64,000 bases of DNA from Acidobacteriota bacterium (GTDB taxonomy: Bacteria; Acidobacteriota; Vicinamibacteria; Vicinamibacterales; CAVVIG01), in NCBI GenBank assembly GCA_003222395.1, contig QHWB01000041.1, positions 1 to 64,000 on the forward strand, in the 5' to 3' direction. The notes under the pieces are model-generated. The model made no database searches, was not told the DNA's origin, and was given only the letters and a program-made list of their open reading frames with translations. Of this stretch, positions 3,652 through 34,700 are shown piece after piece (the stretch's first letter is position 1; each line of letters starts with the position of its first letter). Position numbers and translations under genes: made by a program.

Positions 3652-5595
3652 CTACCGACCGAGCGAGCGCAGGAGATCGTCGATTTGCCCGGCAAGCCGA
3701 GTCTTTTCGGCGGCTGTCGCTTCTTTCTTGGCGATGGCGGCGGCGTGAGTCGCCTCGTCGCGACGGCCGGCCGCAGCAAATGCCCGCGCGAGATTGAAGT
3801 GCGCTTCGGCGTAGACCGGGCGCAGCTGCAGCGCGCGTTGCAGCAGGCGAATCGCTTCGTCGATCTCGCCGAGCGCCACGAGCACGCCGCCGAGATTGTT
3901 GTGCGCTTCGGCGTTGTCTGGTCCGGCGGCGACTGCGCGCTGATAGTGGTCGCGCGCGTCCGGCACGCGGCCGGCGGCGAGCAGCATGTTGCCGAGATTG
4001 TTGTGTGCCGCGGAGTGGCGGGGATTGTAGCGAACCGCAGCGTCGTAGGCGCGCGTCGCGTCATCCGCGCGTCCGAGCGCTTCGAGCGCGACGCCGACGT
4101 TGTAGTGCGCGGCGGCCGATTCGGGCTGCAGCCGCCGCACCGCTTCGAAATGCTCGAGCGCGCGATCGGGCCGGCCGAGCTCGAGGTACAGAACGGCCGC
4201 GTCGTTGCGAAGGTTGACGTGCGCCGGCTCCCGCGCGATCAGCGCTTCGCAGCCGATCGCGTCTTCGGTCGCCATCTTCCGGCGGATGTCCGCGGCGAGA
4301 CGCTCACGATCGGCGTTGGATCTCGTCGTCACCTGCAGCCACACATCGGCCATCTCGTCCGACGATCGCCAGCCCCATGCGACGCGAGCGGCCGGGTGCA
4401 GTGGATTGCGCGCGTTGGCGTCGGAGTTGTCGAAGACGTACTCGGTCGTGATTCGCGTTCCGGCCGGCAAAGGGACCGGTGACGCGAAGCGATATTGATC
4501 CTGCCAGTTGAAATCCCAGTTGCTGATCGAGATGAGCGATCGCGTTGCGCCGTCCGGCGCCGCGGCCCGCGCGCGCACCTCGCGCGCGCGATAATGCGCG
4601 TGCGGCTGGATCGCTTCGACGTCGACGTCGGTCGGCAGCACGTAGGAGTCGGTCACGAGGTACGACGGTTCTCCCGCGGGAATATCGAGGCTCTGACGCC
4701 CGAGCCGCAGCATCACAGGCGTCGATGCCGGCGGGCCGCTGGTGAAATACAACCCAATCTTCGGTTGCACGCGCTCGAGTCGCCCCGTCGGCCGCAGGTG
4801 CAGCTGGACGACGAAATCGGTTCCCGCGTTCAACTGCCAGCCGCGCCCGGCCGGCGCGAGCGGCGCCATCTGGCCGGGCGTCCATCCAAGGAAGTGGCCG
4901 TCGGGATAATCGGCGGACTTGAGAACGACGCCCTCGTAGCCCGGCTCCGGATCCGCCTCGTCGAGCTCGCGCGACGCGGACGTGCGGTCGATGCGGATGT
5001 TCGCGTGATGCACGGCGCGGCTGCCCGGCAGGAACTCGAGGCCGCGGACGTAACGCGTCCCGTCGACGGGAATCGCGGCCACGAAGTTGCGGAACACATC
5101 GCCGCCGTCGGCGCGAAGCGCGTAATCGGCCAACGTGACGATGAGATCGGGCACGCCGAGCTGCCAGCCGCCGTGGAATGCAGGCGGCGCTCGCCGATCG
5201 CCGCCGTCGCCTTCCGCCGCGCCTTCGTCGACCCAGCGCGACAGCTGATCGATTTCGCGATCGCTCAGCCGCCGTTCGCCGACGAACGGACCCGATCCCG
5301 CATCCGGCTTCCACGGCGGCATGTATCGACGGCGCGTCACTTCGGCGATCTGTCGCGCGTGCGCCTTCGCGTCGGCGAAGGTGACCAGGCTGAACGGCGC
5401 GGGTCCGTCGGGATGATGACAGCTCGCGCAGCGCGTCCAGAGGATCGGCGCGACGTCGCGGTTGAATGTGATGTTCGCGTCGACGAGCGACGCATGCGGG
5501 GCGGCCCTTTCAGGGCCGCCGAGGCGGGGCTGAAAGCCCCGCCCCACAACAACGGCCATCGCGATGATCGCCAACGCGTTGGATCGCGCGGTCAC
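3652..5595 (-). CDS. Exported fusion: c-type cytochrome, PHM/DBH-like copper domain, TPR repeats
   Basis: 647 residues. After a signal peptide comes a mono-haem cytochrome segment (CASCHH, Cys56-His60), then a region like copper type II ascorbate-dependent monooxygenases with an HH pair (196-197), a single LH (266) and HAH (332-334), then about six TPR repeats (roughly 430-640). Two relatives in this window keep HxH at the second site and a Met after the third. Here these are QLH and Arg, so the copper sites look incomplete. Residues 17-35, between signal peptide and haem domain, are encoded by a REP-like repeat. The stop codon lies in another REP-like sequence. Role: periplasmic redox or scaffold protein (inference). 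Confidence 0.75.
   Translation of the reverse strand: MTARSNALAIIAMAVVVGRGFQPRLGGPERAAPHASLVDANITFNRDVAPILWTRCASCHHPDGPAPFSLVTFADAKAHARQIAEVTRRRYMPPWKPDAGSGPFVGERRLSDREIDQLSRWVDEGAAEGDGGDRRAPPAFHGGWQLGVPDLIVTLADYALRADGGDVFRNFVAAIPVDGTRYVRGLEFLPGSRAVHHANIRIDRTSASRELDEADPEPGYEGVVLKSADYPDGHFLGWTPGQMAPLAPAGRGWQLNAGTDFVVQLHLRPTGRLERVQPKIGLYFTSGPPASTPVMLRLGRQSLDIPAGEPSYLVTDSYVLPTDVDVEAIQPHAHYRAREVRARAAAPDGATRSLISISNWDFNWQDQYRFASPVPLPAGTRITTEYVFDNSDANARNPLHPAARVAWGWRSSDEMADVWLQVTTRSNADRERLAADIRRKMATEDAIGCEALIAREPAHVNLRNDAAVLYLELGRPDRALEHFEAVRRLQPESAAAHYNVGVALEALGRADDATRAYDAAVRYNPRHSAAHNNLGNMLLAAGRVPDARDHYQRAVAAGPDNAEAHNNLGGVLVALGEIDEAIRLLQRALQLRPVYAEAHFNLARAFAAAGRRDEATHAAAIAKKEATAAEKTRLAGQIDDLLRSLGR
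5497..5548. repeat. Pair of REP-like hairpins inside a coding sequence
   Basis: Two adjacent palindromes, GGCGGCCCTTTCAGGGCCGCC and GGCGGGGCTGAAAGCCCCGCC (each shown with one arm pairing to the other), lie within the 5' end of the cytochrome-TPR gene. They encode residues of the short linker between signal peptide and haem domain, and the reading frame is kept. Same family as the intergenic repeats. Confidence 0.75.
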
Positions 5596-5675: not shown

Positions 5676-8675
5676 ATGAGGACGATCGCGCGTGGTCTCG
5701 TGGTCGTGGCGTGCCTCGTCATGGCGCCGACGATGGCGTTCGCACAGGCGAGCGCGATTGCAGGGGTGGTTCGCGACGGGACGGGCGCGGTGATGCCCGG
5801 CGTCACCGTCGAGGCGAGCAGCCCGGTGCTGATCGAACGCGTGCGCTCGGTCGTCACCGACGAGAAGGGCCAATACAAGATCGTCGACCTGCGGCCCGGC
5901 ACGTACACGGTTACGTTCAGCCTGCCTGGATTTTCCACAGTCAAGCGCGAAGGCATCGAGCTGACCGCCGACTTCACGGCGCCGGTGAACGCCGACATGC
6001 GGGTCGGGCAGATCGAAGAGACGGTCACCGTCACCGGCGCGTCGCCGGTCGTCGACACGCAGGGCGTCGTCCGGCGCGCGGTGGTCACGAAGGACACGAT
6101 CGACGCGATGCCGACGTCGAAGAACTGGTCGACGATCGGGGTCATGACGATCGGCGTGAGCAGCAACCAGAACGACGTCGGCGGCACGGCGGGCGAGCAT
6201 CAGAATCAGCTGAAGGCGCACGGCGGATCCTTCAACGATCGTCTGGTGCAGCTCGACGGTCTGATGATCGCGAACATGGCGTGCAACTACTCGTGCGTCG
6301 GCGTGTCGACCAACGACGCCTCGACGCAGGAGCTGAGCTACGAGCTCGGTGCGATTTCAGCCGAAACGGGCGGCGGCGGCGTTCGTGTGAACATCATTCC
6401 GAAGGAAGGCGGCAACACCTTCAGCGGATCCGCGTTCTTCAACTACGCGACGCACAACTGGCAGTCGAACAACCTGACGTCCGATCTCAAGGCGCAGGGC
6501 GTGACGTCGACCGATACGATCGATCATCTCTACGACACGAGCTTCGCGTTCGGCGGTCCGATCAAACGCGACAAGGTGTGGTTCTGGACGGCGCATCGGT
6601 ACTGGGGCTACAAGATTTTCCGCACCGACTCCTATTACGAGACGAATCCCTTCGATCTCGTCTATCAGCCGGATCTCACGAGACCGGGCGCCGACAGCCA
6701 GCCGAACATCAGCGACGACGTGCGGTTGACGTGGCAGATGTCGCCGCGCAACAAGCTGTCGGCGTACTACAACTTCGCGCCGCGCCAGACGCACTTGTGG
6801 AACCTGAGCCGCACCACGCAGGCCGATGCGGCGCAGCTGCAGCGCGTGAACCCGAATCACTTCGAGACGCTCACGTATCGGTCGACGATCAGCAGCCGTA
6901 TGCTGTTCGAGGCGGCCGCCGGCAACCTGACCGAGGACTGGACGCGCGAGCCCAACCCCGAATCGGAAACCTCGCTCCTCTATCCGGTGACCGAGGCGAA
7001 CACGGGCGTCAACTTCCGCGCGTACAGCGGCAACTACTCCCACAACATCACGTCGCTTCGTTCGTACCGCAGCGCGCTGTCCTACATCACCGGATCGCAT
7101 GCGTTCAAGGTCGGGTTCAACATGCAGCAGGGACCGAGCCGCACGAACGTGTGGACGACCTACGACTCGGCGCTGACCGTGCGCGGCGGCCAGCCGCTGC
7201 AGGTGACCGTGCGGACCACGCCGTACACGAACCTCGAGCAGCTCGTCGCCGATCTCGGCGTCTTCGCGCAGGACACCTGGACGCTCAACAAGTTCACGTT
7301 CAACCTTGGCGTCCGTTTCGACTATCTGAACAACCGCGTGCCGGCGCAGTCGGCGGTCGGCGGCACGTGGATCGGTCCGCGGCAGTTCGACGAGATCGAG
7401 AACGTGCCGGACTGGAAGGACATCGGACCGCGTTTCGGCATCGCATACGATCTCTTCGGCAACGGCAAGACGGCGCTCAAGGCGACGTTGAGCCGCTACG
7501 TGCAGACGACGACCGTCGGCTTCGCACGACAGGTGAACCCGCTCCTCATCAACAATTCGACGACGCGCAACTGGACGGATGTGAACGGCGATGGCCTTCC
7601 GCAGGTGTCGCCCGGCTGCAGCTATCCGAGCGCCGGCTGCGAGCTGAGCGCGCCGGCCAACAACGCGTTCGGCACGACGTTGACGACCACGCATTTCGAT
7701 CCCGAACTGGAGACCGGCTGGTTCAAGCGCCGCAACAACTGGGAGGTATCGAGCAGCATCACGCAGGAAATCCGGTCGAACGTGTCGGCCGAAGTGGCCT
7801 TCTTCCGTCGCGCGCAGGGACACTTCCAGATCACCGACAATCAGGTCGTGGCGCCGGCCGACTTCCAGTCGTTCTGCGTCACGGCGCCGTCCGACCCGCG
7901 ACTGCCGTCGGGCGTGAGCGGCCAGCAGATCTGCGGCCTCTCCGATCAGACGCCGGCCTCGTTCGCGCGCGTGCCGAACGTCGACAATCTCGTCACGTTC
8001 GCCGACAACTACGGCAAGCAGGTCGAGATCTTCAACGGGATCGATACGTCGGTGAACGCGCGGCTCCGCCGCGGCGTGTTCCTCAGCGGCGGCGTCGCGA
8101 GCGGCGACATCCATCAGAACGAATGCGGCGTCCGCATCGACAATCCGAGCCAGCGCGTCGTCGCGCTGCCGGGCGGCGGGGCGACGACGTTCGACACGTT
8201 CTGCGACTGGCACACGGGCTGGCTCACGCAAGTCAAGGCGTCAGGGTCGTACACGCTGCCGTGGCAGGAGGTTCAGCTCGGCGCCGTGCTGCAGAACCTT
8301 CCGGGCCAGCCCATTCTTGCCGCGTGGACGTTCACGAGCGCCGAGGCGCGGCCATCGCTTGGACGAAATCTGACGGGCGCCGCGTCGCGCACGCTCAATC
8401 TCATCGAGCCGGGAACGATGTACACCCCGCGGCGCACGCAAGTCGACGTGCGCATCTCGAAGGCCATCCGGCTGCAGGGCTCGCGGCGGCTGCAGGCGAT
8501 GGTCGACATCTTCAACGCGTTCAATTCAAACGCCGCCGTCGGCGCGACGTCTCAGGCAGGGGAGCCGCCGCCCGCGATCAACACGACCTACTCGCCGACC
8601 TCGGCCGAATGGCTGAAGCCGTTCAACATCCTCCAGGGACGCTATGTGAAGATCGGAGCTCAGCTCACGTTTTAA
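5676..8675 (+). CDS. TonB-dependent receptor with N-terminal regulatory-like domain (Oar type)
   Basis: 999 residues. A signal peptide is followed by a carboxypeptidase-regulatory-like fold (AIAGVVRDGTGAVMPGVTVE to about residue 110), then a plug domain and a long beta-barrel ending in the aromatic terminus LTF. Oar-type receptors sit in the outer membrane and import large or scarce ligands, or move proteins, using TonB energy; the ligand is unknown. A strong ribosome site (AGGAGGGG) precedes the ATG. No TonB/ExbBD or substrate-processing enzyme sits next to it. The 80 bp upstream separate it from the divergent cytochrome-TPR gene. Confidence 0.88.
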   Translation: MRTIARGLVVVACLVMAPTMAFAQASAIAGVVRDGTGAVMPGVTVEASSPVLIERVRSVVTDEKGQYKIVDLRPGTYTVTFSLPGFSTVKREGIELTADFTAPVNADMRVGQIEETVTVTGASPVVDTQGVVRRAVVTKDTIDAMPTSKNWSTIGVMTIGVSSNQNDVGGTAGEHQNQLKAHGGSFNDRLVQLDGLMIANMACNYSCVGVSTNDASTQELSYELGAISAETGGGGVRVNIIPKEGGNTFSGSAFFNYATHNWQSNNLTSDLKAQGVTSTDTIDHLYDTSFAFGGPIKRDKVWFWTAHRYWGYKIFRTDSYYETNPFDLVYQPDLTRPGADSQPNISDDVRLTWQMSPRNKLSAYYNFAPRQTHLWNLSRTTQADAAQLQRVNPNHFETLTYRSTISSRMLFEAAAGNLTEDWTREPNPESETSLLYPVTEANTGVNFRAYSGNYSHNITSLRSYRSALSYITGSHAFKVGFNMQQGPSRTNVWTTYDSALTVRGGQPLQVTVRTTPYTNLEQLVADLGVFAQDTWTLNKFTFNLGVRFDYLNNRVPAQSAVGGTWIGPRQFDEIENVPDWKDIGPRFGIAYDLFGNGKTALKATLSRYVQTTTVGFARQVNPLLINNSTTRNWTDVNGDGLPQVSPGCSYPSAGCELSAPANNAFGTTLTTTHFDPELETGWFKRRNNWEVSSSITQEIRSNVSAEVAFFRRAQGHFQITDNQVVAPADFQSFCVTAPSDPRLPSGVSGQQICGLSDQTPASFARVPNVDNLVTFADNYGKQVEIFNGIDTSVNARLRRGVFLSGGVASGDIHQNECGVRIDNPSQRVVALPGGGATTFDTFCDWHTGWLTQVKASGSYTLPWQEVQLGAVLQNLPGQPILAAWTFTSAEARPSLGRNLTGAASRTLNLIEPGTMYTPRRTQVDVRISKAIRLQGSRRLQAMVDIFNAFNSNAAVGATSQAGEPPPAINTTYSPTSAEWLKPFNILQGRYVKIGAQLTF

Positions 8676-8816: not shown

Positions 8817-8839
8817 ACGTGATGTCGAAGGAGAGCGTG

Positions 8840-10288
8840 ATGTTTGTTCGAAGGTTTGCCCTGGCTGCGATCGCGGCGGGTCTGGCGATGCCGTTGGGGC
8901 TGAGCGCGCAGCAGGCTGCCGCGCCGTCCGACGTCACGTTTACGAAAGATATCGCGCCGATCCTGCAGCGCAGCTGCCAGAACTGCCATCGTCCCGACGG
9001 CGTGGCGCCGATGGCGCTCATCAACTACGAGGACGCGCGGCCGTGGGCGCGTGCCATCAAGCAGCGCACCGGCATTGGACCGCATGCGGGAGTGATGCCG
9101 CCGTGGTACGTGGAAAAGAACATCGGTATCCAGCAGTTCAAGGACGATCCGTCGCTCAGCGATGACGAGATCGCGAAGATCGCGAGATGGGTCGACGGCG
9201 GCGCGCCGCGCGGCAATCCGGCCGACATGCCGCCGCCGAGAGTGTGGGATGACCCGCGCGCATGGCATATCGGCACGCCCGATCTGATCATCAAAACGAA
9301 AGAGCTCCTGGTCAAGGGCGACGCACCCGACTGGTGGGGTGAGATTCCGAGTGTCCCGACGGGACTCACCGAGGATCGCTACGTCGCCGCGCTCGAGATC
9401 AAGGAAGTGAACGACGTCGACCTGCATGCGGGCAGCGGCCGGGCGACAGTCGGCGGACGGTTCGTGTTCCATCACATGATCTGGCGCACGCAGGTGCTCG
9501 ATCCGGCCAAGGCGGCGGAGCCGCCCGACCCGCTCGCGATCTTCAACGACGAGGAGGCCGTCAACTGGCCGGTGCACGAGGTCGGGCGCAATCCGGACTT
9601 CTTCGATCCGAAGTCGGCGCGTCTGCTGAAAGCCGGTTCCTACATCGTGTCGGACTCGATTCACCTGCACTCGAACGGGCGCGACACGCGCGCGCACCTC
9701 GAGATCGGTTTCAAGCTGCAGCCGAAGGATTACAAGCCGACCTACAAGCGGGCGGTGTTCGGCCTCGGCAACGGCGTCGACATCGACATCAGGGCGATGG
9801 AGGCGAACCAGCAGCTGCACGCATACACCGTCCTGCAGCAGCACACGAAGCTCATCTCGTTCGAGCCGCACCTGCACGCGCCCGGCGCGCGCATGTGCCT
9901 CGAGGCGATCTGGGGCTACAACATCCAGACGCTGAACTGCGTCGGCTACGATCACAACTGGGTGCGCGGCTACGACTACACCGACGATTCGGCGCCGCTG
10001 CTGCCGAAGGGGACGATCCTCCACATCGTCGGCTTCATGGACAATTCGCCGTCGAACAAGAACGTGCCCGATCCGCGCAACTGGCAGGGCTCGGGCAACC
10101 GCTCGGTGGCGAACATGTTCATCGACCTCGGCATGCGCGTCGCGCTGAACGACGATCAGTTCCAGGAAGAGATGACCCGGCGCGTCAAGGCGAATCCAGG
10201 CAAAGACGTCGTCCTCGGGTGCCCGCTGTGCGGAGTCGTCGCGAGGCAGCAATCGTCGAAGCCGACTGAGAATCAGAATCCACGATGA
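8840..10288 (+). CDS. Exported haem-copper protein: mono-haem cytochrome c plus PHM/DBH-like domain (module copy 1)
   Basis: 482 residues from the ATG at 8840, which has an AAGGAG ribosome site; two in-frame ATGs upstream lack one. Signal peptide, then CQNCH (Cys46-His50) with TFTKDIAPIL before it, then a domain with HH (211-212), HLH (275-277), HLH (344-346) followed by Met352. This His pattern matches the two copper sites of peptidylglycine/dopamine monooxygenases (HH; HxH; HxH and Met), as I recall them. Inferred role: periplasmic monooxygenase or oxidase whose copper domain receives electrons from its own haem. It overlaps the next gene by 4 bp. A homologue with the same kind of partner gene is at 33.3-34.7 kb. 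Confidence 0.78.
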   Translation: MFVRRFALAAIAAGLAMPLGLSAQQAAAPSDVTFTKDIAPILQRSCQNCHRPDGVAPMALINYEDARPWARAIKQRTGIGPHAGVMPPWYVEKNIGIQQFKDDPSLSDDEIAKIARWVDGGAPRGNPADMPPPRVWDDPRAWHIGTPDLIIKTKELLVKGDAPDWWGEIPSVPTGLTEDRYVAALEIKEVNDVDLHAGSGRATVGGRFVFHHMIWRTQVLDPAKAAEPPDPLAIFNDEEAVNWPVHEVGRNPDFFDPKSARLLKAGSYIVSDSIHLHSNGRDTRAHLEIGFKLQPKDYKPTYKRAVFGLGNGVDIDIRAMEANQQLHAYTVLQQHTKLISFEPHLHAPGARMCLEAIWGYNIQTLNCVGYDHNWVRGYDYTDDSAPLLPKGTILHIVGFMDNSPSNKNVPDPRNWQGSGNRSVANMFIDLGMRVALNDDQFQEEMTRRVKANPGKDVVLGCPLCGVVARQQSSKPTENQNPR

Positions 10289-11247
10289 ATAGAACGTTTG
10301 GTGTGCTCGCCGCGCTCGTCGTCGCGGGCGCGGCGTCGTTTCCTGCCGCTCAGTCACTCTCATACACCCGCGGACAGAACGTCGCCCCCGCGTACGAAGG
10401 CTGGGAGCAGGCCCCGGACGGCACGAAGTATTTCGTGTTCGGGTACATGAATCGAAACTGGGAGGAAGAGATCGACATTCCGGTCGGCGCCGACAACGGC
10501 TTCAGTCCCGGCGACGCAGACCAGGGGCAGCCGACGCACTTCCTCCCGCGCCGGAATCGATTCATCTTCAAGGTCAAAGTACCTGCGGCGTTCAAAGAGA
10601 AGGACGAGCTGATCTGGTCGCTCACCTCGCACGGGAAAACGGAGAAGGCGTACGCGTCGCTGCGGCCCGACTACATCCTCGACGACGTCGTGAAGGCGTC
10701 CGAGACGGGTGCGCTGGGCGCGGGCACCAGCAGTCCCGAAGTGCGCGCGAACACGCCGCCGACGCTCAAGGTCGAAGAAATCAAGGCGCGCACGATCAAA
10801 ACCGGTGAACCGCTCACCATCATCACCCAGGTGAAGGACGACGGCGTCCCGAAGCGGCGCGATCCGTCGCGCGTCGCAGCCGCACAGGCGCGCGCGGCCG
10901 AGCAGTCGACCGGTTCGTCGACGCCGACTCGCAATCCCTCGATGGTGCCTCCGACGCGCATTACCGTCGGCAAGAGCGTCGGACTGCACTTGTCGTGGTT
11001 TCTGTATCGCGGCCCGGCCGGCGCCACGGTGACGTTCGATCCCGCGCAAATCAAGGCGTGGGAAGACACGCGTACTGGCGCGGACTCGCCGTGGGCGCCG
11101 CTGTGGGTGGCGCCGGCGCTTCCGCCGGACGGCAAAGTGCCGGTGCACGTGACGTTCAGCGAGCCAGGCACGTACGTCCTCCGCTGCCGCGCCGACGACG
11201 GCGCTCTGGTGGCCGACGAAGAGGTCACGATCGTCGTCACGCGGTGA
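10285..11247 (+). CDS. Exported partner protein of the haem-copper module (copy 1)
   Basis: 320 residues, signal peptide ending near PAAQ. It starts at an ATGA overlap with the haem-copper gene. Segments VAPAYEGWEQ, GYMNRNWEEEIDIPVG, DADQGQPTHFLPRRNRF and a C-terminal Ig-like strand set (VHVTFSEPGTYVLRCRADDG) are matched in the same order by the 32.2-33.2 kb gene, so the two are paralogues. No catalytic motif is visible. The C-terminal Ig/beta-sandwich and conserved pairing point to an accessory or substrate-binding subunit. I know no characterised family name for it. Confidence 0.72.
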   Translation: MNRTFGVLAALVVAGAASFPAAQSLSYTRGQNVAPAYEGWEQAPDGTKYFVFGYMNRNWEEEIDIPVGADNGFSPGDADQGQPTHFLPRRNRFIFKVKVPAAFKEKDELIWSLTSHGKTEKAYASLRPDYILDDVVKASETGALGAGTSSPEVRANTPPTLKVEEIKARTIKTGEPLTIITQVKDDGVPKRRDPSRVAAAQARAAEQSTGSSTPTRNPSMVPPTRITVGKSVGLHLSWFLYRGPAGATVTFDPAQIKAWEDTRTGADSPWAPLWVAPALPPDGKVPVHVTFSEPGTYVLRCRADDGALVADEEVTIVVTR

Positions 11248-11382: not shown

Positions 11383-11781
11383 ATGCGTCGGCTATCGGTA
11401 GGAATCATTGGTGTGCTCATTTGCGCGTGGATGGCGATCGCCTCGGCTCAGAATCCGGGCGGCAGCGACGCCGGCAAGAAGATGAAGAACCCGGTGCCGG
11501 CGTCGCCGGAATCGATCGCGAAGGGCAAAGAGCTGTTCACCAAGAACTGCCGCTTCTGCCATGGCGCCGATGCGAAGGGCAACGGTCCCATGGCGCCGGA
11601 AGGCACGCATCCGTCGGACCTCACCGATGCGAAGTGGGATCGCGGGTCGACCGACGGCGAGATCTTCCTCGTCATCCGCGAAGGCGCGGGGCCGAAAATG
11701 GACATGAAGGGGTACAAGAGCAAGATGTCCGAGACGGACGTCTGGAACGTCGTCAATTTCCTTCGCAGCCTCGCGAAGTAA
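11383..11781 (+). CDS. Mono-haem c-type cytochrome, first gene of the Alternative Complex III-like operon (ActE-like)
   Basis: 132 residues: signal peptide to about residue 22, then one class I cytochrome c domain with CRFCH (56-60), the following GADAKGNG, and a distal Met supplied by the PKMDMKGYKSKM region. It ends WNVVNFLRSLAK, the usual C-terminal helix. In Alternative Complex III the mono-haem subunit ActE passes electrons from the penta-haem subunit to the terminal oxidase or a soluble carrier. The position directly upstream of the penta-haem gene (3-bp gap) supports that role. Confidence 0.8.
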   Translation: MRRLSVGIIGVLICAWMAIASAQNPGGSDAGKKMKNPVPASPESIAKGKELFTKNCRFCHGADAKGNGPMAPEGTHPSDLTDAKWDRGSTDGEIFLVIREGAGPKMDMKGYKSKMSETDVWNVVNFLRSLAK

Positions 11782-11784
11782 ACG

Positions 11785-12423
11785 ATGCACGCGCGATTGG
11801 CAGGCCTGAAGGCGTGCGCTGCGGGTATGTGCGTTGGCGCCGGTGGGTGCGTTGCCGTAGCGCAGCCCTTTAGCGCTGCCATGGTGATCGCGTTCGCGCT
11901 CGGCCTCGCGGCGTGCGGTTCGCAGCCGCAGCTGTCGGATGCGGTGTTCACGACCGCGCACCGCAGTCCGGGCGAAGCGGCGCGCCATTTCTTCAACTCG
12001 CATCCCCGTCCGCAGCAGCCGCTCGCGTTCCCGCACAAGACGCACATCGAGAAGAAGGCGGAGTGCACCGACTGTCACGAGACCGTGGAACGAGGACCGG
12101 TCGCCGGCATCCCCAGCGTCAAGGCATGCATGATCTGCCACAGTCAGATTGCGACGAGCAAGCCGCTCATCAAAGAGGTGACGTCGTACTCCGACAGGGG
12201 CATCGAGATTCCGTGGCAGCGCGTGTACGGCTTCTATCCGGAATCGCACGTCCGCTTCAATCACGCGCCGCACATCCGCGCGAAGGTGGACTGCGCCGCG
12301 TGCCACGGCGACGTGGCGAACATGACGGTCGCCGAGCGCGTCGTCGATCACACCATGGGATTCTGCGTGAACTGCCACAAGCAGAAGAACGCGTCGAACG
12401 ATTGTCTGACGTGTCATTTCTAG
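11785..12423 (+). CDS. actA: Penta-haem c-type cytochrome lipoprotein (ActA-like)
   Basis: 212 residues with five haem motifs: CTDCH (94-98), CMICH (115-119), CAACH (170-174), CVNCH (194-198), CLTCH (207-211), plus free His residues for axial ligation. A lipobox LAAC places the lipid on Cys44, unusually far in. Residues about 7-32, just before the hydrophobic stretch, are encoded by REP-like sequence, as if a repeat had landed inside the signal peptide. The ATG at 11785 (3 bp after the previous stop) is preferred; a later ATG at 11881 would leave a very short signal. Periplasmic electron-wire subunit of the complex. Confidence 0.8.
   Translation: MHARLAGLKACAAGMCVGAGGCVAVAQPFSAAMVIAFALGLAACGSQPQLSDAVFTTAHRSPGEAARHFFNSHPRPQQPLAFPHKTHIEKKAECTDCHETVERGPVAGIPSVKACMICHSQIATSKPLIKEVTSYSDRGIEIPWQRVYGFYPESHVRFNHAPHIRAKVDCAACHGDVANMTVAERVVDHTMGFCVNCHKQKNASNDCLTCHF
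11804..11880. repeat. REP-like sequence inside the signal-peptide region of the penta-haem gene
   Basis: GGCCTGAAGGCGTGCGCTGCGG and CGTAGCGCAGCCCTTTAGCGCTGCC-type palindromic pieces match the intergenic repeat family (CTGAAGG / CCTTTAG cores with GCGCTACG ends). They are read in frame as residues about 7-32 of the lipoprotein. Confidence 0.6.
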
Positions 12424-12545
12424 TAGCGCTCGCCTAAAAGGCTCGTGCTACACGTGCAGTTGGTACGCGAGCCTTTCAGGGAGTGCAGTTGTAGCGCGAG
12501 CCTTTCAGGGAGTGCAGTTGTAGCGCGAGCCTTTCAGGCGAGCGT
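12424..12545. repeat. REP-like array with three 29-bp direct repeats upstream of the molybdopterin-type gene
   Basis: One inverted pair (GTAGCGCTCGCC...GGCTCGTGCTAC) follows the stop of the penta-haem gene. Then three tandem units start at 12454, 12483 and 12512, each a version of GTGCAGTTGTAGCGCGAGCC plus TTTCAGGGA. The period is exactly 29 bp and there are no spacers, so this is not a CRISPR. The array fills the 130-bp gap inside the operon and could attenuate or stabilise the transcript. Confidence 0.75.
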
Positions 12546-12553
12546 GGGGATCG

Positions 12554-14734
12554 ATGGAGAGACGCGATTTCATCAAGCTGACGGCGGTCACCGGTACGAG
12601 CGCGGCGCTCGCGAGCTGCGGCAACCCGGAGCATCAGCTGATCCGCTTCGTTCCCGAGGAAGACATCATTCCCGGGATCGCGGCATGGAAGCCGAGCGTC
12701 TGCCCGGTGTGCAGCGCCGGATGCGCCGTCAACGCGCGTGTGATGGACGCCGACATCGAGACCGTTCGAAACGGTCAGCGCGGCGTCGTCCGCATGAACG
12801 TCGCGAAGAAGCTCGAAGGGCTGCCGAAGGATCCCATCAGCCGCGGCGGATTGTGCGCGCGCGGGCAGGCGGCGATCCAAATCACGTATCACCCCGATCG
12901 CATCGCGCAGCCGCTGAAGCGCGAAGGCGCGCGCGGCACCGGTCAGTTCAAGGCGATCGGTTGGGACGAGGCGATCGCGGAGCTGGTGTCAAAGCTCGAC
13001 GCGCTCGCCGCGTCGAACGATCAGAAGTCGCTGGCGATCGTCGCGCGTCCGCGGCGGAGCCGCCGATCGGAGCTGCTCGCCGAATTCGCCAGGCGGTTTG
13101 GCGGTCCGCCTCCAATCGCGTTCGACCTGTTCGGCGACGATGTGCTGCGGCGAGCGAACGCCATCAGCTTCGGCCACGATCAGCTGCCGACATTCGATCT
13201 GGCGCAGGCGCGGTACCTCATCGGCTTCGGCGCCGATTTCCTCGGCACGTGGAACTCGCCGGTCGCGCAGAATGCGGCGTATGGCGAGATGCGTCAGGGT
13301 CGTCCGGGCATCCGCGGCAGGTTCGTGCAGGTGGAATCGCGCATGACGACGACGGGCGCGAGCGCGGACGAATGGATTCCGGTGAAGCCGGGGACCGAAG
13401 GCGTGCTCGCGCTCGGCCTTGTGCATCTGATGAATCGCGGCCCTGAAAGGACCGCGCCACAGGCAGCTGCAGCGTCGCGAGCAGATGCGGCGCGGCCCTT
13501 TCAGGGTGGCGACGATGAGTACACGCCCCAGCGCGTCGAGCAGATCACCGGCGTGCCGGCAAAGCGAGTCGAGCGGATTGCGAAAGAGCTCGCCGAGCTC
13601 AGGCCCGCGGTTGCGATCGTCGGCGGTCCGCCGCTCGCGCACACGAATGCGATGTTCACGGCGCTCGCTGTCAATGCGCTGAACACCGCGCTCGGCAGCG
13701 TCAACCAGCCCGGCGGAATATTTTTTACGCCGGGCGCGGCGATCCAGGGCCCAGCCCCCAGTCCCCAGACACCGTACACGAGTCTCGGAACGGCGAAGGT
13801 GCTTCTCATCGACGACGCGAATCCGGTCTACACGTCGCCGACGGCGTGGAAGGTGAAGGACGCGATCGCGAACATCCCGTTCATCGCGAGCTTCGCCAGC
13901 TTCGTCGACGACACGAGCGTGTTCGCGGATCTGATTCTCCCGGATCATTCGTTCCTGGAATCGTGGGTGCAGAGCAGCGCGGAGTCGGGATCGCTCGAAG
14001 CGGCGAGCACCGTCGCCGAGCCGGTGATGAAACCGATTCACAACACGCGCGCGACGCCGGAGGTATTGATAGAGGTTGCTGGAAAACTGAAGGCCCCGGT
14101 GTCGCTGCCATGGAAGGACGCGGAGGAACTCGCAAAATCCGCCCAGCCCCCAGCAACCAGCAACCAGCGACCAGCAACCAGCAACCAGCGACCTGCGACC
14201 AGCCCCCGGCCCCCAGCCTCCAGCCCCCGTTTTGAGGAGCCGAGATTCGACGGCGACGCGGCGCAGTATCCGTTTCATTTCCTGCCGTATCTGTCGCCGG
14301 CGTTCGGCGACGGATCGAGCGCGCACCTGCCGTGGCTGCAGGAGATGCCGGATGCGATGACGTCCGCGATGTGGAGCAGCTGGGTCGAGATGAATCCGCA
14401 GACGGCGCAGAAGCTGAAGGTCAGAGACGGCGATCTGGTTGATCTGACCTCGACGCAAGGGACCCTGCGCGTTCCCGCCGTCATCTTCCCGGGCATCGCG
14501 CCCGACATCGTCGCCATGCCGGTCGGCCAGGGGCACGAGCATTTCACTCGGTACGCGAGCGGGCGTGGCGCGAACGCGATCAGTCTGATCGCGCCGATCG
14601 CCGAACCTGAAACGGGCGCGGTGGCGTGGGCGGCGACGCGAGTGAAGGTGGCGCGTGCCGCAGACGCGAACGGAACCCTGATTCTGTTCGCCGCCGAGAT
14701 GCGCGAGCGTCCCCACGAGTACAAGGTGAGATGA
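12554..14734 (+). CDS. Tat-exported molybdopterin oxidoreductase-type subunit (ActB N-terminal half-like)
   Basis: 726 residues. The twin-arginine motif ERRDFIKL at the N-terminus, then the Cys set C50-x2-C53-x3-C57 and C101 (GGLCARGQ), as in the N-terminal [4Fe-4S] site of DMSO-reductase-family enzymes. Body and C-terminal cofactor-cap regions follow (residues about 600-726). In characterised Alternative Complex III the ActB half lacks molybdenum and, as I recall, this cluster; here the four Cys are kept, and I see no obvious Cys/Ser molybdenum ligand. Two in-frame insertions are repeat-derived: residues about 295-320 (REP-like) and 531-556 (7-bp units). Forms the complex with the FeS, NrfD and DUF3341 subunits encoded next. 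Confidence 0.82.
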   Translation: MERRDFIKLTAVTGTSAALASCGNPEHQLIRFVPEEDIIPGIAAWKPSVCPVCSAGCAVNARVMDADIETVRNGQRGVVRMNVAKKLEGLPKDPISRGGLCARGQAAIQITYHPDRIAQPLKREGARGTGQFKAIGWDEAIAELVSKLDALAASNDQKSLAIVARPRRSRRSELLAEFARRFGGPPPIAFDLFGDDVLRRANAISFGHDQLPTFDLAQARYLIGFGADFLGTWNSPVAQNAAYGEMRQGRPGIRGRFVQVESRMTTTGASADEWIPVKPGTEGVLALGLVHLMNRGPERTAPQAAAASRADAARPFQGGDDEYTPQRVEQITGVPAKRVERIAKELAELRPAVAIVGGPPLAHTNAMFTALAVNALNTALGSVNQPGGIFFTPGAAIQGPAPSPQTPYTSLGTAKVLLIDDANPVYTSPTAWKVKDAIANIPFIASFASFVDDTSVFADLILPDHSFLESWVQSSAESGSLEAASTVAEPVMKPIHNTRATPEVLIEVAGKLKAPVSLPWKDAEELAKSAQPPATSNQRPATSNQRPATSPRPPASSPRFEEPRFDGDAAQYPFHFLPYLSPAFGDGSSAHLPWLQEMPDAMTSAMWSSWVEMNPQTAQKLKVRDGDLVDLTSTQGTLRVPAVIFPGIAPDIVAMPVGQGHEHFTRYASGRGANAISLIAPIAEPETGAVAWAATRVKVARAADANGTLILFAAEMRERPHEYKVR
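13437..13510. repeat. REP-like hairpins in frame in the molybdopterin-type gene
   Basis: CGGCCCTGAAAGGACCGCGCC and GGCGCGGCCCTTTCAGGGTGG, separated by about 30 bp, are copies of the REP-like family. They encode a Pro/Ala/Arg-rich stretch between a helix and the segment DDEYTPQRVEQITGVPA, where relatives of this protein run on without such an insert, to my recollection. Confidence 0.65.
14143..14229. repeat. Tandem 7-bp repeats (CCAGCAA / CCAGCGA / CCAGCCC) in frame in the molybdopterin-type gene
   Basis: About eleven consecutive 7-bp units of the form CCAGCAA, CCAGCGA or CCAGCCC are translated as a Pro/Ala/Thr/Ser/Asn/Gln-rich linker. The 7-bp period means the encoded peptide repeats every seven residues (PATSNQR). 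A shorter run of the same kind lies at 13747-13769. Identical CCAGCAA units form the non-coding repeats at 18.66-18.72 kb and 59.23-59.27 kb. Confidence 0.75.
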
Positions 14735-14796
14735 AACGTGGCCACGAAGAGACGAAAACACGAAGAAGAACAAAATGCGGAACGTTGAGGTTGTAG

Positions 14797-15486
14797 ATGC
14801 CGCATAGATGGGGAATGGCCGTCGATCTGGATCGCTGCACCGGATGCGGCGCGTGCGTGACGGCGTGTCACGCCGAGAACAACATCCCGACCGTCGGCGA
14901 TTCGCAGGCCGCGCGCGGGCGCGCGATGCACTGGATCCGCGTCGAGCGGTACTGGGAAGGCGAGTACCCGGACGTCACGCTGAAGTTCCGCCCTGTGATG
15001 TGCCAGCAGTGCGACGCGGCGCCGTGCGAGCCGGTCTGTCCGACGTACGCGAGCCATCACACCGACGAAGGGCTGAACGCGCAGATCTACAACCGCTGCA
15101 TCGGCACGCGCTACTGCGCCAACGCGTGCCCGTACAACGTCCGCTTCTTCGACTTCTTCCACCCGCAGTGGCCCAAGCCGCTCGACGCGCAGCTCAATCC
15201 CGACGTGTCGGTCCGCGAGGTCGGCGTGATGGAGAAGTGCACGTTCTGCGTGCAGCGCATCCACGCCGCCGCGATCGACGCGAAGGCGGCGAACCGTGAA
15301 TTGAAGGACGGCGAGATTCAGCCGGCCTGCGTCCAGTCGTGCTCGGCGAAGGCGCTCGTGTTCGGCGATCTCAACGATCCCGAGAGCGAGGTCTCGAAGC
15401 TCTCGCGGTCCGATCGCGGGCACAAGCTGCTCGACGATCTCGGCACGCTGCCGAAAGTCACCTACCTGAATCGGCCGCAGGCATGA
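14797..15486 (+). CDS. Multi-[4Fe-4S] ferredoxin subunit (ActB C-terminal half-like; DmsB/PsrB family)
   Basis: 229 residues with four Cys groups: CTGCGACVTAC (14-24), CQQCDAAPCEPVC, CIGTRYCANACPYNV, and CTFCVQRI followed by PACVQSCSAKAL. That is the layout of polyferredoxin subunits that wire a molybdopterin-type subunit to a quinol-oxidising membrane subunit. In many Alternative Complex III operons this domain is fused to the C-terminus of ActB; here it is a separate gene 62 bp downstream. There is no signal peptide, so it would be carried out by the Tat substrate partner. An alternative start is ATG at 14815, which has a GGGGA upstream. Confidence 0.85.
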   Translation: MPHRWGMAVDLDRCTGCGACVTACHAENNIPTVGDSQAARGRAMHWIRVERYWEGEYPDVTLKFRPVMCQQCDAAPCEPVCPTYASHHTDEGLNAQIYNRCIGTRYCANACPYNVRFFDFFHPQWPKPLDAQLNPDVSVREVGVMEKCTFCVQRIHAAAIDAKAANRELKDGEIQPACVQSCSAKALVFGDLNDPESEVSKLSRSDRGHKLLDDLGTLPKVTYLNRPQA

Positions 15487-16838
15487 ACGAAGCGCTCGCC
15501 CAACGCATCAGCGACGATCTCCTGCGTCCCGTCGTGACGACGACGTGGAAATTCTGGCTCCTCGTTGCCGTCCTCGGCAGCATCGTCGCGATGGGGCTCG
15601 GGACGTGGTTCTACCAGATGTACATGGGGTTCGGTCTCACCGGCATCAACATGCCGGTGTACTGGGCCTTCTACATCACGAACTTCGTGTTCTGGATCGG
15701 CATCAGTCACGCGGGCACGCTCATCTCCGCGATTCTGCGCCTCGTGAACGCAGGGTGGCGCCGGCCGGTGACGCGTTGCGCGGAAGTCATCACGGTATTC
15801 GCGCTGATGATCGGCGCGCTGTTCCCGATCATCCATCTCGGACGTCCGTGGCTGTTCTTCTGGCTCGTGCCGTACCCGAGTGAGCGGTTGATCTGGCCGA
15901 ACTTCCGCTCGCCGCTCGTGTGGGACTTCTTCGCGATCAACACCTATCTCACCGGCAGCCTCCTGTTCCTGCTGCTTCCGATGATTCCGGACTTCGCGCT
16001 GGTGCGCGACAAGACGACGGGGTGGCGCAAGAAGCTGTACAGCGTGCTGGCGCTTCGATGGCAGGGCACGACCAAGCAATGGCATCGCCTCGAGTCGGCG
16101 ATGCAGATCATGGCGATCGCGATCATCCCCGTCGCCGTGTCGGTGCACTCGATCGTGTCGTTCGATTTTTCGATGGCGGTGGTGCCGCTATGGCACTCGA
16201 CGATCTTCGCGCCGTACTTCGTGACGGGCGCGATCTTCAGCGGCATCGCGGCGCTCATCCTCGCTATGGCGACGCTGCGCAAGGTGCTGCACCTCGAAGA
16301 GTACCTGCACCCAGTACATTTTCAGAACCTCGGCAAGCTGCTGTTGATGATGAGCCTGCTGTGGACCTACTTCGTCTTCGCCGAGCGGCTCACGGCGTGG
16401 TACGGCAACGAGCCTTCGGAAGTCGAAGCGCTGATCGTCACGCAGAGCGGTTCGTTCGCGCCGCTCTACTGGACGATGGTCGTCTGCAACTTCGTCGTCC
16501 CGTTCGTCATCCTGTCGCTCAGAAAACTGCGTACCATCACCGGCTGCGTGATCGCTTCATCGACCGTGCTCGTCGGCATGTGGCTCGAGCGCTTCCTCAT
16601 CGTGGTGCCGTCGCTCAGCCACAAGTATTTGCCCTATACCTGGGGCCACTATCGGCCGCGGCCGGTCGAGATCATCATCACGATCTCGACGTTCGCGGCG
16701 ATGATGCTGCTCTACACGCTCTTCGCGAAGCTGGTGCCCATCATCTCGATCTGGGAGCTGAAGGTCGGCGAGCATCCGGTGGCCGCGGGAAAGGCGGCGG
16801 AGCTGCGCGAGCACCCGTTGTGGAAGGCGAACCCATGA
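15483..16838 (+). CDS. actC: NrfD/PsrC-like quinol-binding membrane subunit (ActC)
   Basis: 451 residues starting at an ATGA overlap with the FeS gene. About ten hydrophobic helices, with GISHAGTLISAILRL and IIHLGRPWLFFWLVPYP near the periplasmic side, are typical of NrfD/PsrC proteins that oxidise menaquinol or ubiquinol. WTYFVFAERLTAWYGNEP is a characteristic ActC segment. It anchors the cofactor subunits to the inner membrane and feeds electrons to them. No second NrfD-like gene (ActF) follows, unlike canonical Alternative Complex III operons. Confidence 0.88.
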   Translation: MNEALAQRISDDLLRPVVTTTWKFWLLVAVLGSIVAMGLGTWFYQMYMGFGLTGINMPVYWAFYITNFVFWIGISHAGTLISAILRLVNAGWRRPVTRCAEVITVFALMIGALFPIIHLGRPWLFFWLVPYPSERLIWPNFRSPLVWDFFAINTYLTGSLLFLLLPMIPDFALVRDKTTGWRKKLYSVLALRWQGTTKQWHRLESAMQIMAIAIIPVAVSVHSIVSFDFSMAVVPLWHSTIFAPYFVTGAIFSGIAALILAMATLRKVLHLEEYLHPVHFQNLGKLLLMMSLLWTYFVFAERLTAWYGNEPSEVEALIVTQSGSFAPLYWTMVVCNFVVPFVILSLRKLRTITGCVIASSTVLVGMWLERFLIVVPSLSHKYLPYTWGHYRPRPVEIIITISTFAAMMLLYTLFAKLVPIISIWELKVGEHPVAAGKAAELREHPLWKANP

Positions 16839-17344
16839 AGGCGGTTTACGCGCTCTACTCGGATCCGGACGACGTTCAGCGCGCGGTCGACGGGCTGCGC
16901 AAGGCTGGCATCGCGGACGACGACATCACTGTCATCTCTTCGGAGCCGATCGAGGAGTACGAGTTCAGCCATCGGCACCGAGCGACGTGGATCCACTGGA
17001 TCGCGGGCGGCGGCGGCGCCATCGGCCTCGCGCTGGGGACATGGCTGACCAGCTTCACCGAGCGGGCGTGGCCGATCCCGACGGGCAACATGCCGATCGT
17101 CGCGTGGTGGCCAAACCTCATCATCATGTTCGAGATGACGATGCTCGGCGCGATCCTCGCGACGGTCATCACGCTGCTCATCACGGCCAGGATCCCGGCG
17201 CGCACGCCGAAGATGTATGACCCGGAAGTGACCGACGGGAAGATCCTGGTCGGTGTCGAGAACCCCAATGAAGGATCTGTGTCGGCGATCGAGCGGGCCC
17301 TGATGTCGCCCGGCGTCGCACGGTTGAAGACTATTCAGCTGTAA
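16835..17344 (+). CDS. actD: DUF3341 membrane subunit (ActD)
   Basis: 169 residues, overlapping the NrfD gene by 4 bp. The N-terminus MKAVYALYSDPDDVQRAV forms a small ferredoxin-like domain, then two transmembrane helices (about residues 51-68 and 87-112). The central part carries PIPTGNMPIVAWWPNLIIMF, close to the conserved PTGGKPxxxWPxxxPxxFE signature of DUF3341. ActD is a structural membrane subunit of Alternative Complex III. It is the last gene of the operon; the next gene begins 87 bp downstream. Confidence 0.85.
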   Translation: MKAVYALYSDPDDVQRAVDGLRKAGIADDDITVISSEPIEEYEFSHRHRATWIHWIAGGGGAIGLALGTWLTSFTERAWPIPTGNMPIVAWWPNLIIMFEMTMLGAILATVITLLITARIPARTPKMYDPEVTDGKILVGVENPNEGSVSAIERALMSPGVARLKTIQL

Positions 17345-32164: not shown

Positions 32165-33178
32165 CTATTTCGTTCCGCCGGTGACGTTGACCTTCACGTA
32201 CGCGTTCGACCAGCAGCATTGGAACCCGCCGCCGCCTTCACCGGTCGAATCGTTCACCTGTACGCGGAGCGTGTATTCGCCCGCGGTACCGAACGTCGCG
32301 TTGGTGGTGTTCTTCCCGCCGTTGTCCTTGTCGATGGGAGGACCGGCCGGATCGAATTTCACCGTGGCGCCGGCCGGCTGGCGGTACACCGCCCACTTCA
32401 CCGCGATCGGCGGCGGAGGCGTGAATCCCTCGGGCAGCCCGAGCGCGGCGAGATCGCCGCGTGGCCCTCGACCGCCCGTCGCACCGGTGGCGCCGCTCGC
32501 GCCGGCTGCGCCCGCGTCACCGGTTCCACGCCCGCGTCCTCGTCCGCGACCACGGCCGGTCGTTTCGGGGACGTTGATCTTCGGTCCTTCGTCCGTCACC
32601 CACGTCGTGAGCGCCAGTGGTGTGTTGACCGCGGTCGTGTACGAGGCGACCGTGTCGGTCGGCGGACCGGTGAACGCGGGACCGCCCGGCTGGAACATGA
32701 TCTTCGGCGGCGTGTTCTTGCTCGCCGCGTCTTCGAACGGCTCGACGACGTAGTCGGCCTGCGTGTGGAGCGTGATGCTGTTGGTGAATCCGTTCGCGAC
32801 GATCGTCCACGTCAGCTTCTTCTGGCCGAACTCCTTCGGCACTTTGATCGCGAGCACGCCCCATTGGCGGCCGGTCTGGAAATGCGTCGGTTGTCCCTGA
32901 TCGGGACCGCCTGGCTCGATGCGGTTGTTCGGTCCGGCGGGGATGTCGAATTCCTGTTTCGTGTTCCGGTTGAAGTACCCCACGAGCAGGCGGATGCTGC
33001 CGTCCTTGTCGTAGTACCAGCCTTCGTACGCCGGCGTCACGCTCGTGCCGCGCTCGCGAATCGTCTGCGACAGCGGCAGCGAGCTCGGCGTCTGTCCCAC
33101 GCCCTGCTTCCCCGCGCGTCCGAGCACGGTACCCGCGAGCGCCACGATCAACACACCGACGACGGCAGATCGACGCAT
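32165..33178 (-). CDS. Exported partner protein of the haem-copper module (copy 2)
   Basis: 337 residues with a signal peptide. It shares VTPAYEGWYY, GYFNRNTKQEFDIPAGPNN, PDQGQPTHFQTGRQWG and a C-terminal Ig-like end (FGTAGEYTLRVQVND) with the gene at 10.3-11.2 kb. An insertion around residues 210-245 is a run of Gly-Arg repeats followed by a collagen-like GDAGAAGASGATGATG stretch, absent from copy 1. Two adjacent Cys (QCCWSN) near the C-terminus are also specific to this copy. It lies downstream of the second haem-copper gene, with a terminator between. Confidence 0.72.
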   Translation of the reverse strand: MRRSAVVGVLIVALAGTVLGRAGKQGVGQTPSSLPLSQTIRERGTSVTPAYEGWYYDKDGSIRLLVGYFNRNTKQEFDIPAGPNNRIEPGGPDQGQPTHFQTGRQWGVLAIKVPKEFGQKKLTWTIVANGFTNSITLHTQADYVVEPFEDAASKNTPPKIMFQPGGPAFTGPPTDTVASYTTAVNTPLALTTWVTDEGPKINVPETTGRGRGRGRGRGTGDAGAAGASGATGATGGRGPRGDLAALGLPEGFTPPPPIAVKWAVYRQPAGATVKFDPAGPPIDKDNGGKNTTNATFGTAGEYTLRVQVNDSTGEGGGGFQCCWSNAYVKVNVTGGTK

Positions 33179-33317: not shown

Positions 33318-34700
33318 TTATTGCTGCTGCGCGGCGCCCGTGGCCGTGGTCGTTGCCGATGGGCGCTTGGCGAGCTCGGCCTTGAACTCGTCGTCGCTGT
33401 AGTACGTGATGTTGATCCAGGCGTGACCCATCTCGTCGACGGTGCGGTCGCCCCAGCCAACCCACTGATCCGGATCCGGATTCGATTTGTTCCCTTTCGT
33501 GTTGTCGTACCACGCGAGGAAGTGGAGGATCGTTCCCTTCGGCAGCAGCGGCGCGACGTCATCGGCGTAGATGTACATGTTGTGCCAGTTGAAATTGAAG
33601 TCGACGACCTGGCTCAACATCTCGCGCTTGCCGTCCGGATAGATCGCTTCCATCGACATGCCCTTGCCGCGCAGGTGCATGTGCGCCTGGAAGTTTTCGA
33701 TGCGCGCATTCTGCTTCAGCGCGACGAAGCTCTCGGTCGTCGTCACGGCGTTCGGGGCGATGTCGAGCGCACGCGTGCCGACGACCTGGTTGCCCGAGAA
33801 GGTGTTGAACAGCGCAAGCACCTCGCGGTGCTTCGGTTCCTGTCCCTTCGGATAGAACCACACGGCGAGCTCGGTGTGCGCCGAGACTTCCTCGCCGACC
33901 GCGTGATAGTGCATCTCCCACGTGATCTTCGACCCCGGCAGCATCAGCCGGCCGGAGTCGGGACGCATCTCGTCGCCGTTCTTGCCGACCGCCCATTCCA
34001 TGAAGAGGCCGTCGCCCGCGACGTTCGGATCGTTGGTGAACAGCGCCGGATCCATGTCCTCGGGCTGCACGAGGCGCGCGAGCGCGTGATGCGTGATCTT
34101 GCGCGCGTTCTTGCCGACCGGACGGATTTCAATCGCCCGAACCCAGCGCGGTTCGGTGAGGCCGGTCGGGACCGTCGGACGCCACCACGCGTCCTGCGCC
34201 ACCGCAGGCATCGTGTACTCGGGCGATTTGACGATGAGGTCGGCCTGACCGTACTTCGAGGCCAGCTGCCACACGGCATCCGTGGGCCACTGCTTCGGCG
34301 CGGGCATATCCTTCGGATCCCCCTTCGGCGATCCCGCCGCGACCCACGCGAGGATCGTGTCGATCTGGTCGTCGTTCAGCGAGCGATCGTTCTGGAACTT
34401 CTGGATGCCGACGGTCTTGTCGATGTGCCACGGCGGCATCTGGCGTGCGCCGACGCGCGCGGCAATCGACTTGGCCCACGGCCTGGCCTCTTCGTAGGTC
34501 GTGAGTGACATCGGCGCCATGCCGTCGGAGCGGTGGCATGCCTCGCATTTCGCTTGGAAGATCGGAGCGACGTCCTTGGTGAAGGTCGGCGTCTTGACCG
34601 TATCGGCGGCGATCGCCGGAACGCTCATCAACAAAATGCCGAGCGCAGTCGCGCCTGCACCCAGTCCGCGCCAGAGCCAGTTGTGAAACTGCTGACCCAT
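33318..34700 (-). CDS. Exported haem-copper protein: mono-haem cytochrome c plus PHM/DBH-like domain (module copy 2)
   Basis: 460 residues. Signal peptide to about residue 32; CEACH (52-56); then HH (204-205), HYH (264-266), HMH (340-342) followed by Met348/350, the same order and similar spacing as copy 1. FTKDVAPIFQAKCEACH and EARPWAKSIAARVGARQMPPW are shared landmarks. Inferred periplasmic copper monooxygenase or oxidase fed by its fused haem; no substrate is known. C-terminus is Thr/Ala/Gln-rich low complexity. Transcription runs toward the partner gene, as in copy 1, but 139 bp with a terminator separate them. Confidence 0.78.
   Translation of the reverse strand: MGQQFHNWLWRGLGAGATALGILLMSVPAIAADTVKTPTFTKDVAPIFQAKCEACHRSDGMAPMSLTTYEEARPWAKSIAARVGARQMPPWHIDKTVGIQKFQNDRSLNDDQIDTILAWVAAGSPKGDPKDMPAPKQWPTDAVWQLASKYGQADLIVKSPEYTMPAVAQDAWWRPTVPTGLTEPRWVRAIEIRPVGKNARKITHHALARLVQPEDMDPALFTNDPNVAGDGLFMEWAVGKNGDEMRPDSGRLMLPGSKITWEMHYHAVGEEVSAHTELAVWFYPKGQEPKHREVLALFNTFSGNQVVGTRALDIAPNAVTTTESFVALKQNARIENFQAHMHLRGKGMSMEAIYPDGKREMLSQVVDFNFNWHNMYIYADDVAPLLPKGTILHFLAWYDNTKGNKSNPDPDQWVGWGDRTVDEMGHAWINITYYSDDEFKAELAKRPSATTTATGAAQQQ

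Follow-up and report, generated by a model that had tools for sequence, protein, structure and literature searches.

A putative haem c-fused copper monooxygenase of the PHM/DBH fold and its Ig-like partner in an Acidobacteriota bacterium

Analysis of the window (the whole stretch of 64,000 nucleotides of Acidobacteriota DNA studied here) revealed a two-gene module that probably encodes a secreted, two-subunit type II copper monooxygenase with the fold of peptidylglycine alpha-hydroxylating monooxygenase (PHM) and dopamine beta-hydroxylase (DBH), equipped with its own electron-entry haem c and accompanied by an Ig-like subunit. Both proteins carry signal-peptide-like N-termini. This reading is drawn from residue conservation and predicted structure, together with the linkage of the two genes across several phyla. 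The first copy of the module comprises the following genes:

8840 to 10288, plus strand: large protein, copy 1, with signal peptide, N-terminal haem c domain and C-terminal PHM/DBH-like copper domain
10285 to 11247, plus strand: partner, copy 1, with signal peptide and two Ig-like domains

Predicted haem and copper sites of the large protein

The open reading frame of the copy 1 large protein opens with a GTG at 8819 and its likely start is the ATG at 8840; residue numbers used below are counted from nucleotide 8831. Its end at 10288 is overlapped by 4 nucleotides by the partner gene. The sites recognised in this protein, all on the plus strand, were:

8975 to 8989: CQNCH haem c attachment motif (C49, C52, H53)
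9095 to 9097: M89 (in MPPW), presumed distal haem ligand
9470 to 9475: H214 and H215, predicted CuH ligands (PHM H107/H108)
9662 to 9664: H278, predicted third CuH ligand (PHM H172)
9869 to 9877: H347-L-H349, predicted CuM ligands (PHM H242/H244)
10115 to 10117: M429, predicted CuM methionine ligand (PHM M314)
10220 to 10231: C-terminal CPLC motif, at least 90% conserved in alignment A2 of 57 relatives

In an alignment of 94 relatives, C49, C52, H53 and M89 were kept in every member, so that the CxxCH and methionine features of class I c-type cytochromes are present throughout, and the Pfam Cytochrome_CBB3 model matched weakly (E 6e-4). The copper residues were retained almost as strictly: H214, H215, H347, H349 and M429 each in 92 of 94 sequences, and H278 in 93. 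The exceptions were two paralogues from the same genome, L018 (823-2043) and L019 (1369-2445), natural copper-less versions that have lost nearly all of the copper ligands and kept CxxCH. In the most divergent set of paralogues (n=11), all six copper ligands were found among only 17 invariant columns. The spacings between HH, H, HxH and M in copy 1 are 64, 69 and 80 residues and resemble those of PHM, which are 65, 70 and 70 in PHM numbering. The ligands were matched to PHM through their order, their spacing and an alignment with DBH, the methionine lying outside the aligned DBH stretch. The first-pass annotation had described CxxCH joined to a series of HH, HxH, HxH and Met, this series being the copper ligand order of PHM/DBH enzymes; all of these elements occur in that order, but in the middle HxH only the first histidine is universal, since the second (H280) was conserved in only 80 of the 94 relatives.

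One could suppose that the PHM-like fold is only a binding scaffold, as in related two-jelly-roll proteins of the PNGase type, and that the haem is the sole redox centre. The fold is indeed common to PNGase F, and L018 and L019 have dispensed with the copper residues while keeping CxxCH. We nevertheless regard this as highly improbable because a scaffold would not need the six ligands that 92 to 93 of 94 members from several phyla have kept.

Fold and superfamily membership

An AlphaFold2 model of the copy 1 large protein (57 sequences) reached a pLDDT of 82.6 and a pTM of 0.80, the CPLC motif falling in a low-confidence part of it. When this model was compared with the PDB by Foldseek, the best 27 matches were all human DBH or PHM, with a top E value of 2.4e-8. 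Superposition with VIA-align gave a Z score of 17.1 with DBH (PDB 4zel) and 13.3 to 16.7 with PHM, followed by 7.2 with PNGase F, and the gap from 17 to 7 rules out a generic jelly-roll match. At the sequence level, a domain profile of 11 members matched human DBH with an E value of 1.5e-4, with the HH, H and HxH residues aligned on DBH histidines. Pfam PF03712 was matched by eight of the 11 profile members (best E 1.5e-5) and PF01082 by two, and several haem-fused relatives exceeded the PF03712 cut-off; a Pfam scan of copy 1 alone gave no significant copper-domain match. Because fold, ligands and sequence agree, the assignment of the predicted copper domain to the PHM/DBH (type II copper monooxygenase) superfamily is supported. 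The first-pass annotation had thus rightly anticipated both a PHM-like predicted fold and the conservation of its His/Met residues across homologues. A kinship with hydrazine synthase was also considered and rejected, as the weak NCBIfam and PDB matches to it span only the CxxCH segment, which is common to many such cytochromes.

The partner and its linkage to the large gene

The model of the copy 1 partner (pLDDT 84.6) consists mainly of beta strands in two blocks, and a fold search against the PDB returned generic tandem Ig matches such as titin, with low TM-scores and poor global superposition. Since it combines these beta-strand blocks with tandem Ig matches, we read the partner as two predicted Ig-like domains. 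It matched no Pfam or NCBIfam family at cut-off, in line with the earlier description of partner paralogues with no known family, and its signature reads GYxNRN...P.G..N...PG..D.GQPTHF.PRR. A C-terminal CCW motif characterizes one partner subgroup (32165-33178 on the minus strand, C84 and C111) and is absent in the copy-1 type.

When genome contigs were scanned with the alignment of partner proteins, at least 561 relatives were recovered; the 80 top-ranking loci belong to Acidobacteriota, Gemmatimonadota, Gammaproteobacteria and metagenome-assembled genomes labelled Acidimicrobiia or Cyanobacteria. Where upstream sequence was sufficient (81 partner genes), a large gene was located on the same strand within 400 nucleotides upstream in 76 cases. 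Among the other five, two were the second of tandem partners, one had its large gene just past 400 nucleotides and two had none. Among 297 Acidobacteriota genomes, the partner was present in all 28 that contain a close large protein. The co-occurrence of the two genes in other genomes, which had been put forward as a check, was thereby confirmed in several phyla. Fusions occur in both orders: the unit in C111 is a single protein of 716 amino acids with the partner first, and a second genome (G229) encodes one of 755 amino acids with the large protein first. Three pairs stand in tandem in G116. Large proteins with a linked partner group in the tree as a single clade with strong support; three of the members carried an unlinked label, but a partner gene does lie beside them. 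Judged by this linkage, the large gene and its partner are a real unit. In L108 and L121 the large gene is gone and the partner gene is left where close relatives carry the pair. A search of PLSDB for carriage of the module on plasmids gave no match.

Paralogues in the window and in the genome

As the first-pass annotation had noted, the pair at 8.8-11.2 kb recurs at 32.2-34.7 kb with the large gene preceding the partner both times. Besides this second copy, the window holds a third large paralogue:

33318 to 34700, minus strand: large protein, copy 2, with haem c and copper domain
32165 to 33178, minus strand: partner, copy 2, Ig-like, with C-terminal CCW motif and start MRRSAVVG
3652 to 5595, minus strand: third large paralogue, with haem and copper domain plus TPR repeats, and no partner gene

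Identity is 37% between the two large proteins (E 3e-93) and 31% between the two partners (E 4e-31), and the large proteins of copies 1 and 2 fall in different deep subclades of the tree; these identities and positions exclude a recent duplication within the window, and by the same sequence comparisons the two copies are old paralogues. Both copies proposed earlier are real, but more than a simple duplication is involved, as the genome (7.74 Mb) contains about 19 paralogues of the large protein and eight units of large protein plus partner, located in C15 (twice), C40, C64 (twice), C20, C84 and C111. In these eight pairs the divergence of the large proteins is correlated with that of the partners (r 0.80, Mantel p 0.0004); the pairs co-diverged and therefore multiplied as pairs. 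The TPR-tailed large paralogues belong to a clade separate from the partner-linked ones. There are six of them in the genome, often adjoining similar TonB-type receptors, and the one in the window is transcribed away from a TonB-receptor-like gene.

Proposed function

In the mechanism that we consider probable, periplasmic c-type cytochromes would deliver electrons one at a time to the haem c of the large protein, which would in turn reduce CuH and CuM. CuM would then activate O2 and hydroxylate a C-H bond in a substrate that is either small or surface-bound. As for the Ig-like partner, it would bind the enzyme and probably hold the substrate or dock the enzyme, and the many paralogues of a genome would be versions differing in substrates and electron donors. 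Copper binding, the replacement of ascorbate by haem and monooxygenase activity are predicted properties of this enzyme.

No conserved clue to the substrate was found among the module loci, and the number of paralogues suggests several substrates. Peptide amidation, the reaction of PHM, appears unlikely because the anchoring arginine is replaced and no lyase partner was seen among the sampled neighbours. In PHM, an arginine two residues before the CuM HxH motif anchors the peptide carboxylate; the corresponding position is glutamate in copy 1 and glutamine or threonine in others. No PAL lyase domain or gene was recognised among the sample of neighbours scanned with Pfam. On a broader scale, we see about an even chance that these proteins represent widespread, undescribed periplasmic copper hydroxylases that would take their electrons directly from the respiratory chain by way of a built-in haem c and need an Ig-like subunit, as a bacterial counterpart of DBH and PHM with an expanded substrate range.

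Comparison with known systems

PHM and DBH, which produce amidated peptides and noradrenaline respectively, are textbook examples whose known occurrence is mainly in animals. The large protein shares with DBH the two-domain copper core and the HH, H, HxH and M order, and the profile and superposition scores given above apply to this comparison. DBH, however, has an N-terminal DOMON domain and no haem c, depends on ascorbate and acts on phenethylamines, whereas in the protein described here the N-terminal domain is of the haem c type and the Ig-like partner is a separate protein. With PHM it has in common the fold and a similar spacing of the six ligands, and differs from it in the haem c that would stand in place of ascorbate, in that no PAL was recognised among the neighbours examined, and in the replaced arginine. 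Also comparable are the TPR-tailed, haem c-fused proteins of the PF03712 type, such as that at 3652-5595, which show the same haem plus copper core and are likewise often found beside TonB-type receptors, but differ in their TPR tail, in having no Ig-like partner and in forming their own clade. Cytochrome-fused or cytochrome-fed LPMOs, such as the cellobiose dehydrogenase and AA9 pair, are analogous in logic only, in that a haem domain feeds a copper monooxygenase; theirs is an unrelated copper fold with a single copper and a b-type haem.

The copper fold is thus already known, and Pfam reaches some of the haem-fused members. What seems new is the fusion to haem c combined with a near-obligate Ig-like partner: searches of the open-access literature turned up neither a haem-fused PHM/DBH protein nor a haem c fusion with an Ig-like partner. 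The route by which electrons reach the distant coppers of PHM and DBH and pass between them is still debated, and in a natural polypeptide joining haem and copper core, electron transfer could be tracked by visible spectroscopy. The module is abundant (eight copies here and three in tandem in a relative) in soil and marine bacteria that are mostly uncultured, and may mark a sizeable body of unrecognised oxidative chemistry.

Genomic neighbourhood and alternative roles

Copy 1 has the following genes on either side:

5676 to 8675, plus strand: TonB-dependent-receptor-like protein with CarboxypepD_reg N-terminus, upstream of copy 1; the receptor assignment is inferred from sequence type
11383 to 17344, plus strand: redox cluster downstream of copy 1, with monohaem c, pentahaem c, QrcB-like, QrcC-like FeS, NrfD and ActD proteins

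The redox cluster scored 311 bits for QrcB, 245 for QrcC and 83 for QrcA, all below the NCBIfam cut-offs, and its NrfD and ActD were above the Pfam cut-offs. With the multihaem c, molybdopterin-like/FeS and NrfD subunits typical of such complexes, and the ActD of alternative complex III, it is a Qrc/alternative-complex-III-like complex; no second NrfD (ActF) and no terminal oxidase gene was seen adjoining it. The first-pass annotation had taken a quinol-oxidising complex directly downstream as a pointer to the electron source. The cluster is there, but the hint is a weak one, as this arrangement is confined to copy 1 and its closest orthologues (L046-L048), which rules the cluster out as a general electron donor. 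Elsewhere, in two genomes (L036, 5670-8417; L131, 6895-9555), a PQQ dehydrogenase that carries a cytochrome c domain is a neighbour of the module: one adjoins the C111 module and a similar gene follows the module in G214. Such a neighbour would suit the oxidation of an alcohol product. A 684-amino-acid octahaem c protein (L034, 7507-9561) is directly divergent from the C20 module, on the other side of which lies a sulphite/nitrite reductase-like gene. Redox neighbours vary between loci and are absent at many, therefore no single donor is established.

The same neighbours could be read in the opposite direction, with a real copper domain serving as an oxidase, a reductase or a redox-sensing unit and electrons flowing from substrate to copper, to haem and to the respiratory chain. 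Some modules do have PQQ dehydrogenase-cytochrome genes or a quinone-linked complex as neighbours, and haem c domains are often the electron outlets of periplasmic dehydrogenases; against this, the six ligands are those of the two-copper sites of the PHM/DBH family, whose characterised members use O2. We hold this alternative to be rather unlikely.

CopC genes were found within about 8 kb of the module in 20 of the 80 loci, mostly in Gammaproteobacteria, and CopD-like and SURF1 genes lie near it in one gammaproteobacterial group. Together with the CPLC motif and the CCW motif of some partners, these genes would fit a module that binds, stores or delivers copper, for example to terminal oxidases, with the PHM-like fold as a mere metal carrier. 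A carrier, however, would not need haem c, at least eight units per genome are many for a chaperone, and most loci outside Gammaproteobacteria have no copper-handling neighbours, which leaves a copper-handling role distinctly unlikely. For the preferred monooxygenase, the copper and redox neighbours support copper use and periplasmic electron supply in general terms.

Two further associations were recorded. A series of housekeeping genes, infB-rbfA-truB-rpsO-pnp, named by eye from their sequences, stands upstream of the module in four Gammaproteobacteria and was taken as coincidental context. Near the module in L056, L079, L082, L114, L115 and L135, two kinds of protein recur, a planctomycete cytochrome protein of the DUF1592 type and a DUF1552-like one.
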